Shown one piece after another: positions 10,692 to 62,172 of a stretch of 64,000 bases of DNA. Where the stretch lies: positions 434,001-498,000 of the forward strand of contig NZ_VHIB01000008.1 of NCBI RefSeq assembly GCF_008087345.1. Direction: 5' to 3'. The translations under genes and the position numbers were made by a program. The notes under the pieces were generated by a model. That model was not told where the DNA came from. It did not search any database and saw only the letters and a list, made by a program, of their open reading frames with translations. This stretch comes from Nocardioides caldifontis (lineage in GTDB: Bacteria; Actinomycetota; Actinomycetes; Propionibacteriales; Nocardioidaceae). Each line of letters begins with the position of its first letter. The first letter of the stretch is position 1.

Positions 10692-11837
10692 ATGAAGGCG
10701 TTGTCGGTCCTCGCGCTCGTCATCGCGCTGCTGCTCGCCGCGTGCTCCTCCGACGAGCCGGTCGGCGACCCCGACGCGCTCGGCTCCGCACCCTCCGCTC
10801 CCCAGCCCTCGACCAGGACCGCGGAGCCGCAGCAGACGCTGGAGGCCTCTCCCTCGGTCGGCCGCCCGACCGTGGTGCGGACCGTGGCCTCCGGGCTGGA
10901 GGCTCCGTGGGGGCTGGCGTTCCTCCCCGACGGCACGGCGCTGGTCAGCGAACGCGACACCGCGCGGATCCTCGCGCTCGAGGGGCCGCGCAACAACCGG
11001 GTGCGCGAGGTCGGCACGGTCGACGACGCCAGCCCGCAGGGCGAGGCCGGCCTCCTCGGGCTCGCCGTCTCCCCGTCGTACGACGAGGACCGGCTGGTGT
11101 ACGCCTACGTCAGCACCGCCGACGACAACCGCGTCGTCCGGATGGAGTACGACGGTCGCCGGCTCGGCACCCCCGAACCGGTGCTGACCGGGATCCCCAA
11201 CGGGTTCACCCACGACGGCGGCCGGCTGCTCTTCGCAGACGACGCCACCCTCTTCGTCTCCACCGGCGAGTCGGGCGAGCCGTCGTTGTCGCAGGACGCC
11301 GACTCGCTCGGCGGGAAGGTCCTGCACATCACGACCGACGGCGACCCCGCGCCCGACAACCCGCGGGACGGCTCGCCGGTGTGGTCGATGGGCCACCGCA
11401 ACGTGCAGGGGCTCGCGTTCGACGACGACGGCCGGCTGTGGGCGACCGAGTTCGGCCAGAACACCTGGGACGAGCTGAACCTCGTGGAGAAGGCCCGCAA
11501 CTACGGCTGGCCGCTGGTCGAGGGGCGCGGCGAGGGCGACGACTACCGCAACCCGCACGTCACCTGGCGCACCACGGAGGCCTCGCCCTCGGGGCTGGCG
11601 TTCGCCAACGGCTCCCTGTGGGCCGGCGCGCTCCGGGGCGAACGGCTCTGGGAGGTCCCGGTCACCGCGGACGGCACCGGCAAGCCGACCGACTGGTTCG
11701 TCGGGAGCTACGGCCGGGTGCGGACGGTCGTGGTCGCCCCGAACGGCAACCTCTGGATCACGACGAGCAACCGCGACGGCCGCGGCGACCCGGCCCCGCA
11801 GGACGACCGGATCCTCGAGGTCGCCCTCCCCGACTGA
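10692..11837 (+). CDS. PQQ-dependent sugar dehydrogenase-like lipoprotein
   Basis: The first 17 residues are a lipoprotein signal peptide ending LLLAAC, with C18 the lipidated residue, followed by a Ser/Pro/Thr-rich linker to about residue 55. The rest is a glucose/sorbosone dehydrogenase beta-propeller (LEAPWGLAFLPDG, GEAGLLGLAVSP, YAYVSTADDNRVVR, GHRNVQGLAFD, WATEFGQNTWDELN). Such proteins oxidise sugars with pyrroloquinoline quinone and calcium at the outer face of the membrane; many actinobacterial members are uncharacterised and not all bind PQQ. No PQQ synthesis genes are in the window. Confidence 0.88.
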   Translation: MKALSVLALVIALLLAACSSDEPVGDPDALGSAPSAPQPSTRTAEPQQTLEASPSVGRPTVVRTVASGLEAPWGLAFLPDGTALVSERDTARILALEGPRNNRVREVGTVDDASPQGEAGLLGLAVSPSYDEDRLVYAYVSTADDNRVVRMEYDGRRLGTPEPVLTGIPNGFTHDGGRLLFADDATLFVSTGESGEPSLSQDADSLGGKVLHITTDGDPAPDNPRDGSPVWSMGHRNVQGLAFDDDGRLWATEFGQNTWDELNLVEKARNYGWPLVEGRGEGDDYRNPHVTWRTTEASPSGLAFANGSLWAGALRGERLWEVPVTADGTGKPTDWFVGSYGRVRTVVVAPNGNLWITTSNRDGRGDPAPQDDRILEVALPD

Positions 11838-11849
11838 CCCGCCGCCCTG

Positions 11850-11950
11850 CCGACCCGTCGCATCTTCATCCGGTTCAAGCGCCGAGTCGTCGCATCTTCA
11901 CCGCTCTCAAGCGCCGAGCCGTCGCATCTTCACCGCTCTCGGGTGCCGAG
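11850..11950 (-). repeat. 32-bp tandem repeat array, left arm
   Basis: Three repeats with the core GTCGCATCTTC begin at 11857, 11889 and 11921, an exact 32-bp period; the surrounding consensus is CCGAGCCGTCGCATCTTCAC plus about 12 variable bases. The same unit recurs three times in opposite orientation at 12022-12113, so the two arrays together form a long imperfect inverted repeat around about 75 bp of unique sequence. Confidence 0.9.
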
Positions 11951-12021
11951 GCGGCGCGTCCTCCCCGGGATCGCGGGCCGGGCCGCGACCACGACGCAGG
12001 ATGTGCCGACTAGACGGCATT

Positions 12022-12113
12022 CCGCGTGAAGATGCGACGGCTCGGCGGGAAGTCGGCGTGAAGATGCGACGGCTCGGCGGCAAACCGGCGTGAAGATGCG
12101 ACGGGTCGGCGGT
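12022..12113 (+). repeat. 32-bp tandem repeat array, right arm
   Basis: Three copies of GAAGATGCGAC start at 12028, 12060 and 12092, again exactly 32 bp apart, each followed by GGCTCGGCGG or GGGTCGGCGG. This is the reverse complement of the left array. The last copy touches the stop codon of the GNAT gene (12113-12115). Confidence 0.9.
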
Positions 12114-12625
12114 CAGGGGGCGAGGACCTGGAAGAGCAGGTGGTCCTGCCAGCGCCCGGCGATGCTGAGGTACGCCGGCGCCATCCCGATCCGGACGAAC
12201 CCGTTCCGCTCCAGCACCTTCTGGGACGCGGTGTTGTGGAGCAGCGTCGCCGCCTGGAGGCGGTGCAGCCCGAGCTCGCCGAACGCCAGCTCCTTCGCCG
12301 CCGCGACGGCCGAGGTGGCCAGACCGCGGCCGTTCGCCGACTGCGCGATCCAGTAGCCCAGGTTGGCCGACTGGAAGGCCCCTCGCACGATGCCGGTGAC
12401 GTTGAGCCGGCCGACGATCTCGCCGTCGTCGTCGAGGACCACAAGCGGGTGGCCCAGCCCCAGCTCGTGCTCGGTCAGCGCGGCGCGGAGCGCGGCGAGC
12501 TGCCCCTCCTCGGTGAAGAACGAGTCCGGTCGCACGGGCTCCCACGGTGTGAGGAACTCGCGGTTGGCGCGCAGCAACGAGGCGATCGGCCCGGCGTCGT
12601 CGGGCGTGACGAGCCGGACCCGCAC
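12113..12625 (-). CDS. GNAT N-acetyltransferase of the RimJ/RimL type
   Basis: The 170-residue protein follows the RimJ/RimL pattern: an N-terminal MRVRLVTPDDAGPIASLLRANREFL, the middle strand GRLNVTGIVRGAFQSANLGYWIAQS, the acetyl-CoA loop NGRGLATSAVAAAKELAF (Q/R-x-x-G-x-A site), and HNTASQKVLERNGFVRIGMAPAYLSIAGRWQDHLLF. It should acetylate an alpha- or side-chain amino group; the substrate is unknown. GTG at 12625 sits 2 nt after the gatB stop, so it is co-transcribed with gatCAB. Confidence 0.85.
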   Translation of the reverse strand: MRVRLVTPDDAGPIASLLRANREFLTPWEPVRPDSFFTEEGQLAALRAALTEHELGLGHPLVVLDDDGEIVGRLNVTGIVRGAFQSANLGYWIAQSANGRGLATSAVAAAKELAFGELGLHRLQAATLLHNTASQKVLERNGFVRIGMAPAYLSIAGRWQDHLLFQVLAP

Positions 12626-12627
12626 GG

Positions 12628-14130
12628 TCAGCTCAGCTTCTCGACGATGAGCTCGCGCACCCGGCCGGCGTCGGCCTGGCCGCGCATCTCCTTCATCACC
12701 GCACCGATGAGCGCACCAGCCGCCTGCACCTTGCCGCCCCTGATCTTCTCGGCGACGTCAGGATTGGCGGCGATCGCACGGTCGACCGCCTCGGAGAGCG
12801 CCCCCTCGTCGGAGACGACCGCAAGCCCACGCTTCTCGACCACCTCGTCCGGCTCGCCCTCGCCGGCGAGCACGCCGTCGAAGACCTGCCGGGCGAGCTT
12901 GTCGTTGATCTTCCCCTCGTCCACGAGCGCCTGGATCCGGGCCACCTGCGCGGGAGTGATCGCGAGCGCCGACAGCTCGACGCCCTGCTCGTTGGCCCGC
13001 CGCGCCAGCTCGGAGAGCCACCACTTGCGAGCCGCCTGCGGCGACGCACCTGAAGCAATTGTCGATGCGACAAGATCGAGCGCACCCGCGCCTACGGTGT
13101 CGCGCATCTCGAGGTCTGAGAACCCCCACTCGGCCTGCAGCCGACGGCGGCGCTCGGCGGGCGGCTCGGGCAGCGTCGCCCGCAGCTCCTCCACCCACTC
13201 GCGCGACGGGGCCACCGGAGCGAGGTCGGGCTCAGGGAAGTAGCGGTAGTCCTCGGCGTCGGACTTCTCCCGCCCCGGGGACGTCGTCCCGGTGTCCTCG
13301 TGGAAGTGGCGGGTCTCCTGCACCACCCGCTGGCCCGAGTCGAGGATCCCGGCGTGCCGGCTGACCTCGTAGCGGACCGCCCGCTCCACCGAGCGGAACG
13401 AGTTGACGTTCTTGGTCTCGCTGCGGGTGCCGAGGGTCGTCACGCCGTGCGGCCGCAGGGACAGGTTCACGTCGGCGCGCAGGGACCCCTGGTCCATCCG
13501 CACGTCGGAGACGTCGAGGGCCAGCATCAGGTCGCGCAGCTGCTGGACGTACGCCCGGGCCACCGCCGGCGCCTTGCCGCCCGGCACGAAGATCGGCTTG
13601 GTGACGATCTCGATCAGCGGGATCCCGGCCCGGTTGTAGTCGAGCAGCGAGTGCTCCGCCCCGTGGATCCGCCCGGTCGCGCCGCCGACGTGGGTGGACT
13701 TGCCGGTGTCCTCCTCCATGTGGGCGCGCTCGATCTCGATCCGGTAGGTCTCCCCGTCGACCTCGACCTCGGTCCACCCGTCGAACGCGATGGGCTCGTC
13801 GTACTGCGAGGTCTGGAAGTTCTTCGGCATGTCCGGGTAGAAGTAGTTCTTCCGCGCGAACCGGCACCATTCCGCGATCTCGCAGTTCAGCGCCAGCCCG
13901 ATGCGGATCGCCGACTCCACCGCCTTGCCGTTCACCACCGGCAGCGAGCCCGGGAGCCCCAGGCACACCGGGCAGACGTGGGTGTTCGGCTCGCCACCGA
14001 ACGTGGTGGGGCAGCCGCAGAACATCTTCGTCGCGGTGTTGAGCTCGACGTGCACCTCGAGCCCCATGACCGGCTCGTAGCGGGTCAGCGCCTGCTCGAA
14101 GGGCACCAGCTCCGGCTGGGTGAGCGTCAT
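12628..14130 (-). CDS. gatB: aspartyl/glutamyl-tRNA amidotransferase subunit B
   Basis: GatB is the kinase/tRNA-binding subunit of GatCAB, which converts Glu-tRNA(Gln) or Asp-tRNA(Asn) to the amidated form. The 500-residue protein opens with [25 protein letters not shown] and [15 protein letters not shown], giving the zinc cysteines, then has [16 protein letters not shown] and [14 protein letters not shown], and ends in the tail (YqeY-like) domain [33 protein letters not shown]. Its ATG overlaps the gatA stop by 4 nt. Confidence 0.97.
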
Positions 14131-17989: not shown

Positions 17990-20923
<2,934 letters not shown>

Positions 20924-62126: not shown

Positions 62127-62172
62127 TGTCGAACCGCCCCTCGTGGCGTGTTGAACCGCCCCTCGTGGCGTG
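62127..62172 (-). repeat. 22-bp tandem repeat of the GCGCGCCACGA family
   Basis: Two 22-bp units, GTGTCGAACCGCCCCTCGTG and GTGTTGAACCGCCCCTCGTG plus GC, stand end to end before nucS. They are the reverse complement of the repeats at 20839-20923. Confidence 0.85.

Follow-up and report, generated by a model that had tools for sequence, protein, structure and literature searches.

A 32-bp repeat stands in two facing arrays between a sugar-dehydrogenase-like gene and a GNAT acetyltransferase gene of Nocardioides caldifontis, and the locus raises the question of what such a regular structure is doing where two genes converge. Extragenic repeats peculiar to a species are familiar chiefly as palindromic REPs, of which many are linked to Y1 transposases. 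The original prediction on the window (the whole stretch of DNA that was analysed, 64,000 nucleotides) named a transcript structure, a REP-like mobile repeat and a nucleoid-protein site as candidates. We find that the genome has at least 31 such arrays, dispersed and for the most part extragenic, and that the window array is not a local feature. Tentatively, we prefer to read these arrays as helically phased rows of DNA-binding sites for one putative sequence-specific protein, with a separating or bridging role at gene ends.

The window array and its genome-wide family

The array and its flanking genes are laid out as follows.

10692..11837, + strand: sugar-dehydrogenase-like lipoprotein gene (open reading frame and gene call; the name is that of the original prediction)
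11849..11944, + strand: left arm, three 32-bp units starting at 11849, 11881 and 11913, counted from GCCGA
11945..11976, + strand: decayed fourth unit, 63% identical to the first unit
11945..12014: middle between the arms, without a called gene
about 12015..12110, − strand: right arm, three 32-bp units opposed to the left arm
12026-12046, 12058-12078 and 12090-12110, − strand: cores of the right arm
12113..12625, − strand: GNAT acetyltransferase gene (Pfam Acetyltransf_3, E 4e-23)
12628..14130, − strand: gatB-like gene (gene call L055:3829-5331)

Each left-arm unit consists of the 21-nt core GCCGASYCGTCGCATCTTCAC, whose final base is T in the first unit, and an 11-nt spacer. The shorter word CGTCGCATCTTCA(C/T) occurs six times, at 11856, 11888 and 11920 on the + strand and at 12026, 12058 and 12090 on the − strand, with a spacing of exactly 32 bp in both arms. 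TRF scores the arms at 147 and 150. The six copies, the spacing, the opposed arms and their coordinates are thus as originally predicted, and the estimate that about 12 of 32 bases vary fits the roughly 11 that are free.

The left arm begins 11 bp past the stop of the dehydrogenase-like gene (end 11837), and the stop of the GNAT gene lies 2 bp from the right arm. Matches to the 14-mer with three mismatches are at chance level in the window, 11 against 9.0 expected. Hence the array exceeds chance by its five exact copies, its 32-bp spacing and the genome count, and not by those matches.

Across the genome (4,806,234 bases, 33 contigs), the 12-nt core GTCGCATCTTCA occurs in 106 exact copies, 58 on the + and 48 on the − strand, and its reversed control is absent. 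The 31 sites fetched from the genome comprise 51 arms of 1–6 units each, 136 units in all. Between sites the 21-nt core is 91% identical, and spacer positions 23-32 are 32% identical where 29% is expected from composition. The 85 steps inside arms are 32 bp in 75 cases, 33 bp in five, 31 bp in three and 64 and 107 bp once each. At core positions 14-18, the five-letter word ATCTT is found in 115 of the 136 units.

As the spacers are randomised and the core and the period are kept, most units cannot have been copied from each other recently. Neighbouring spacers within an arm have a mean identity of 0.555, and 16 of 85 pairs reach 80% or more, a likeness that points to arm growth via tandem duplication. 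CRISPR-like growth at one end was considered and rejected, the inner units being no worse than the outer ones (12 vs 10 of 45 arms, p 0.83).

The arms face each other. Among 100 listed of the 106 copies, neighbouring opposite-strand copies within 1.7 kb form 16 inward pairs and no outward pair. By the scan used, both arms are present at 19 of the 31 sites and one arm stands alone at 12. The middle ranges from almost nothing to more than 1 kb and contains a gene at several sites, and the arms often lie 0–20 bp from a stop codon.

At 14 of 30 sites the flanking genes are convergent, compared with 39 of 217 background junctions taken from ten other stretches of the genome and the window (p 0.001); the other sites are co-directional (12) or divergent (4). 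These contexts were assigned by hand, with site L059 omitted, from gene calls based on a custom codon score for which the window served as training set. At L059:3038-3215, an array with mostly 33-bp steps lies in an open stretch of 713 codons on the other strand. A second frame is open there for 688 codons, and a real gene is only putative. The 33-bp steps are a whole number of codons, so the reading frame is kept.

The genes between or beside the arms are diverse, including SnoaL-like, Tudor, UDG, dienelactone hydrolase, AbiEi/MTES_1575, GNAT, methyltransferase, AIR synthase, NDK, AAA, ZnuA, ThiS and PNPOx genes. The idea that the arms carry transposase or defence cargo was rejected, as these genes are varied and mostly ordinary. 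No protein cluster is common to the sites, the largest having eight unannotated members over 66 loci. Frame-shifted or truncated DUF222-type genes, 82–96% identical in aligned pieces, each lie by a single arm at L035:3206-4488, L036:669-2888 and L052:3111-3475. DUF222 was rejected as a carrier, since it adjoins arrays at 3 of the 31 own sites and at none of 35 loci of other genomes.

Relatives, shared junctions and further families

The exact core 12-mer is absent from all four genus mates examined. Of 58 genomes searched, 16 contain it, the own one among them, and each of the rest of these has one or two copies. A wider pattern, which fixes the scaffold and CAC and leaves the word and spacer letters free so that only these count as free evidence, detects arrays in 10 of the 149 family genomes, spread over 4 of 26 genera, with controls at zero throughout. 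Its matches number 49 in the own genome, 48 in G001, 16 in G088, 11 in G125, 7 each in G036 and G149, 3 in G118 and 1 each in G119, G147 and G151. A class-wide draw of 246 genomes, 18 other family members included, gives a match in the own genome only. A search of genome and relatives had been proposed originally, on the ground that a unit occurring only here would be a local duplication; the copies elsewhere in this genome and in its relatives speak otherwise.

The five-letter word changes between these genomes. Among the matches listed, it is TTGTG in 19 of 26 in G001 and 4 of 7 in G149, AAACT in all 11 in G125, ATCTG or AACTG in all 7 in G036, and the own ATCTT in 1 of 3 in G118 and the single one in G147. 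In G088 the listed words are varied with none dominant, RTCTG making up 7 of 16. Some arms in G001, G149 and G036 have words unlike the usual one of their genome. The word is therefore mostly, not always, species-typical, and some words recur across genera.

The flanks of the own sites were sought in the genus mates G001, G002 and G004 and the orthologous junctions were fetched. Nine junctions have both flanks at one place in G001 (L034, L039, L043, L047, L053, L055, L057, L058 and L060). Arrays are present there at three of them, each with TTGTG where the own word is ATCTT, namely the dehydrogenase/gatB junction of the window, L043 (L126 in G001) and L060 (L124), and are absent at the other six (L034, L039, L047, L053, L057 and L058). 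DNA similar to the dehydrogenase-like gene is present in G001, G002 and G004, where it closely adjoins gatB with no match to the GNAT gene between them. At this junction, G001 has two 32-bp TTGTG units abutting the gatB stop codon.

Facing arms enclose an AbiEi/MTES_1575 endonuclease-like gene in both genomes, at L060:3126-4133 and L124:336-1311. The two genes are 58% identical and on opposite strands relative to the flanking genes, so the segment between the inverted arms has flipped in one lineage. An exchanged word at a shared site can stem either from ancestry with word replacement or from arrays arriving more than once at preferred sites. The gene enclosed by the arms at L060 speaks for ancestry.

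None of the 15 fetched junctions of G002 and G004 has arrays of the own family. At L042, the aligned flanks are separated by 10 bp in G004 and by 516 bp in the own genome, where the arms and a Tudor-domain gene lie between them. The junction of L060 also has facing arrays in G002, built of another unit with a period of 22. Elsewhere in G001, one array sits between a stop codon and a terminator-like hairpin, and at L084:2593-3228 both arms lie within an acyltransferase gene for which Pfam gives lipoyl, E3-binding and catalytic domains. Behind the lipoyl domain, and flanked by Pfam domains on either side, one arm runs in 33-bp steps and encodes an in-frame 11-residue repeat; the other arm has steps of 30 and 32.

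The first family is not the only one. A second core, GARCCGCCCCTCG, unrelated to the first, has 194 exact copies in the own genome against 8 of its control. In seven other genomes it has 0–10 copies, no more than the controls except in G004 (10 vs 4). The window holds two of its arrays.

20847..20916, − strand: second-family array, exact copies at 20871 and 20904, 33 bp apart, and a decayed third at 20847, 24 bp off
62131..62165, + strand: second-family array, two exact copies 22 bp apart

For 100 listed of the 194 copies, the 27 steps of up to 110 bp are 22 bp in four cases, 31–33 bp in 20 and 36, 64 and 66 bp once each, with none of 23–30 bp between exact copies; 13 pairs of these listed copies face inward and none outward. 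A third family with the unit GACGCTTCGCGCGTAC occurs in G002 only among the 149 genomes, with 12 matches. All 12 have a period of 22 bp under a pattern that allowed 19–25. Its sites include the facing arrays at L125:286-583 and G002:C1 positions 927074, 2149812, 4060710, 4078234, 4153580 and 4154782.

A motif-free search of ten 20-kb stretches from each of four genomes yields five clusters in G002 (0.2 in shuffles), two in the own genome (0.4), one in G003 (0.4) and none in G012 (0.2). Of the G002 clusters, two consist mostly of coding DNA, and both clusters of the own genome belong to the second family. Three unrelated cores thus have the facing layout, with spacings mostly near two or three helical turns.

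Beyond these genomes, plasmid and phage collections give weak partial matches only, and viral contigs give none. A scan of species genomes, which may omit the own genome and its close kin, returns five stretches. One from Acetobacter (L062) has scattered two-mismatch copies only, and three look, by eye, like repeats in coding DNA. The fifth, L061:187-266, comes from a Burkholderiales MAG and consists of three 33-bp units that contain CGTCGCGTCTTCAA, two bases off the own 14-mer and without the GCCGA scaffold; it is probably coding and unrelated.

Mobile repeat, transcript structure or slippage

The arrays were compared with known repeats. No description of such arrays appeared among the open-licence papers listed by literature searches. 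According to Di Nocera et al. (2013, PMC3733652), REPs are dispersed and intergenic, often less than 20 bp from the stop codons of converging genes and often in inverted pairs; many families are species-specific and some copies lie within genes. CGTC-REPs, which lack a dedicated transposase, are described there as palindromes with an 8–9-bp stem and a terminal tag. Like REPs and BIMEs, the own arrays are high in copy number, mostly extragenic, near gene 3′ ends and in inverted pairs. Unlike CGTC-REPs, they consist of tandem units that follow one another every 32 bp and are separated by random spacers.

The own core forms no stem longer than 3 bp (−1.1 kcal/mol) and folds no more stably than shuffled sequence, and the cores of G001 and G036 form a 4-bp stem in the near-palindrome GCCGAGTCGGC (z −0.4 and −1.3). 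An unpaired GTAG or CGTC at a palindrome end, the REP tag, is missing, the CGTC of the own core being internal. A linked RAYT transposase, suggested originally as a thing to look for, did not appear: the Y1 domain (PF01797) has no match in 16 genomes, and the controls match in 5 of 14. The search covered eight of the ten carriers (G000, G001, G036, G088, G118, G125, G147 and G149, leaving out G119 and G151). With no Y1 transposase and a non-palindromic own core, the arrays are not filed as REPs; they are REP-like in behaviour and yet not REPs. Of the proposed REP-like mobile repeat, then, the dispersal holds (106 copies, mostly intergenic, often near stops and lineage-specific), and the RAYT link, by the 16 genomes searched, does not.

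REPINs, as described by Bertels and Rainey (2011, PMC3116915), consist of two inverted copies around a middle. They are RAYT-linked doublets whose distances peak at 71 or 110 bp, with several families per genome and some ordered tandem clusters. The own genome likewise has inverted copies around a middle and more than one family. It differs in its arms of 1–6 units, its variable middle and the RAYT domain that was not found in it.

The strongest rival is a REPIN-like non-autonomous mobile repeat, in which a facing pair of cores would be moved by a putative non-Y1 transposase or single-strand processing enzyme, and core conservation would reflect recent copying or recognition by that enzyme. 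It accounts for the high copy number, the lineage restriction, the six junctions of nine that are empty in G001 and the stop-codon placement reported for REPs. The closed-up L042 flanks in G004 and the G001 array placed between a stop codon and a terminator-like hairpin also speak for it. The spacers, random between sites, however, are not those of recent copies of a single unit, the 16 genomes have no Y1_Tnp, and three of the nine junctions common with G001 carry arrays of other words. Nor do the own-site flanks show, by reading, a shared direct repeat that would mark a target-site duplication; the reference junctions are too diverged for short duplications. We regard this mobile repeat as possible, though doubtful.

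Another rival holds that the arms pair as RNA in a long hairpin, by which the mRNAs of both converging genes would be terminated or protected. The RNA of the window array indeed folds into one long hairpin of −210.6 kcal/mol (z −13 vs shuffles), so the structure predicted originally can form, and the convergent bias and the arms 0–20 bp off stop codons suit such a role. A very stable fold is, however, expected from any inverted repeat. By reading, no T-run flanks either window arm or follows the hairpin, so that the array does not look like an intrinsic terminator, a hairpin and then a T-run. An Rfam search gives two weak matches, neither above the gathering score. One arm alone at 12 of the 31 sites and the sites between divergent genes likewise do not suit a hairpin shared by converging genes.

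Little or no co-variation is seen between the arms. Indexed from the outer ends, mirrored spacers agree at 0.384 against 0.354 permuted (p 0.09), and the variable bases of mirrored units show no excess match (p 0.46). Indexed from the inner ends, the spacers agree at 0.418 against 0.364 (p 0.014), or at 0.399 against 0.365 (p 0.08) without four sites where the arms meet, and the variable bases again do not match above chance. The innermost words, typed by hand from the fetched sites, are equal between the two arms at 6 of 13 G001 sites where 6.8 are expected. RNA pairing is thus probably not the main constraint on the arrays, although a weak trace of arm pairing or of a common origin of the arms remains in the inner-indexed spacers. 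On balance, we think a transcript structure quite unlikely.

Neutral minisatellites, that is, functionless chance repeats enlarged by slippage, would fit the local arm growth seen in the alike neighbouring spacers but leave unexplained one core at 31 sites, the kept core with random spacers, the period and the inward facing, so this already disfavoured reading is very improbable.

Proposed phased binding arrays

Two further systems help to place the arrays. The TAACTGA repeats of Beggiatoaceae (PMC4679880) are suspected binding sites in sets of 2–6, dispersed between genes with a patchy distribution. They mostly lie a short way upstream of start codons, are direct repeats with few exceptions, and use one heptamer across several phyla. 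The own arrays share the short core in small sets, the intergenic dispersal and the patchiness, whereas they often lie at gene ends, face each other and mostly differ in lettering by species. Neisserial DNA uptake sequences have a constant frame with lineage-specific letters, or dialects, and often form inverted pairs at gene ends, with far more copies per genome; they are not known to form fixed-period tandem arrays. The arrays here share with them the constant frame with lineage letters and differ by their fixed-period tandem order.

CRISPR repeats span 24–48 bp (PMC3733652). With a 21-nt core, an 11-nt spacer, arms of 1–6 units and 31 sites, the arrays do not have the form of CRISPR arrays, in keeping with the original prediction. 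They do have the conserved core, the free spacer and the spacing near whole helical turns of a protein-binding array. Of the candidates put forward originally, the nucleoid-protein site comes nearest to the reading that we prefer.

In the phased binding arrays that we propose, each 21-nt core would be one site for the putative sequence-specific protein. With a 32-bp period, about three helical turns, the proteins on consecutive cores would all sit on the same side of the helix, and because the arms face inward the protein filaments could meet or bridge over the junction. Such a complex at gene ends, above all between convergent genes, may separate two transcription units. Local tandem duplication would lengthen the arms, recombination of the inverted arms would flip the DNA between them, and the protein and its core word would change between lineages.

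We prefer this binding reading because neither a transposon end nor an RNA hairpin need keep the spacer length once its letters are lost. The core is 91% and the spacer 32% identical, yet the step is 32 bp in 75 of 85 cases. Where arrays lie in a frame, at L059 and in one L084 arm, the steps are 33 bp. Moreover, the second and third families share the inward facing and, for the most part, the phased spacing. The bias to convergent junctions and the scant co-variation between arms also speak for binding.

Several results weigh against the binding reading. No protein recurs across the sites among 66 loci, and the atypical words in G001, G149 and G036 and the varied ones in G088 are not what a strict single-specificity protein predicts. 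Tandem duplication passes on the period, so that the steps within an arm are not independent. A decayed second-family copy in the window lies 24 bp from its neighbour, and convergent genes flank only 14 of 30 sites, with four sites divergent and one in an open frame. The inner-indexed spacer likeness (p 0.014, or 0.08 without four sites) also sits poorly with it. REPIN-like spread and protein binding are not exclusive, and both may hold.

In a bolder version of the binding reading, the lineages of this bacterial family would have their own phased facing arrays at gene ends, read by a putative fast-evolving protein. The word would be rewritten genome-wide at fixed sites whenever the specificity of the protein changes, and the inverted arms would also let the genes between them flip. 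We consider this rather unlikely as a whole. If true, the arrays would be chromosome elements of a new type, with dialects that differ by lineage, and not a transposon relic.

The design of the three families differs from that of REPs in several ways. They lack long REP stems in the two of three that were folded, have random spacers where measured, keep about two or three helical turns and point their arms inward, with no Y1 in the genomes searched. One junction can hold different words (own and G001, three junctions) or another family (G002, one junction). This opens to direct test the old question whether extragenic repeats are kept up by selfish copying or by a function for the host: the core can serve as bait for the putative protein, and the period can be varied by mutation.

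Some smaller observations are added here. At three places where the own genome has arrays (L070:1087-1501, L116 and L132), G002 has inverted repeats of another sequence. Position 6 of the unit is C in 16 of 51 outermost, gene-proximal units and in 8 of the 85 others (p 0.002). At four two-armed sites of G125 (L095, L097, L099 and L100), one arm is mostly AAACTCAC and the other mostly AAACTCGC, and this difference between the arms resembles an element with two kinds of end.
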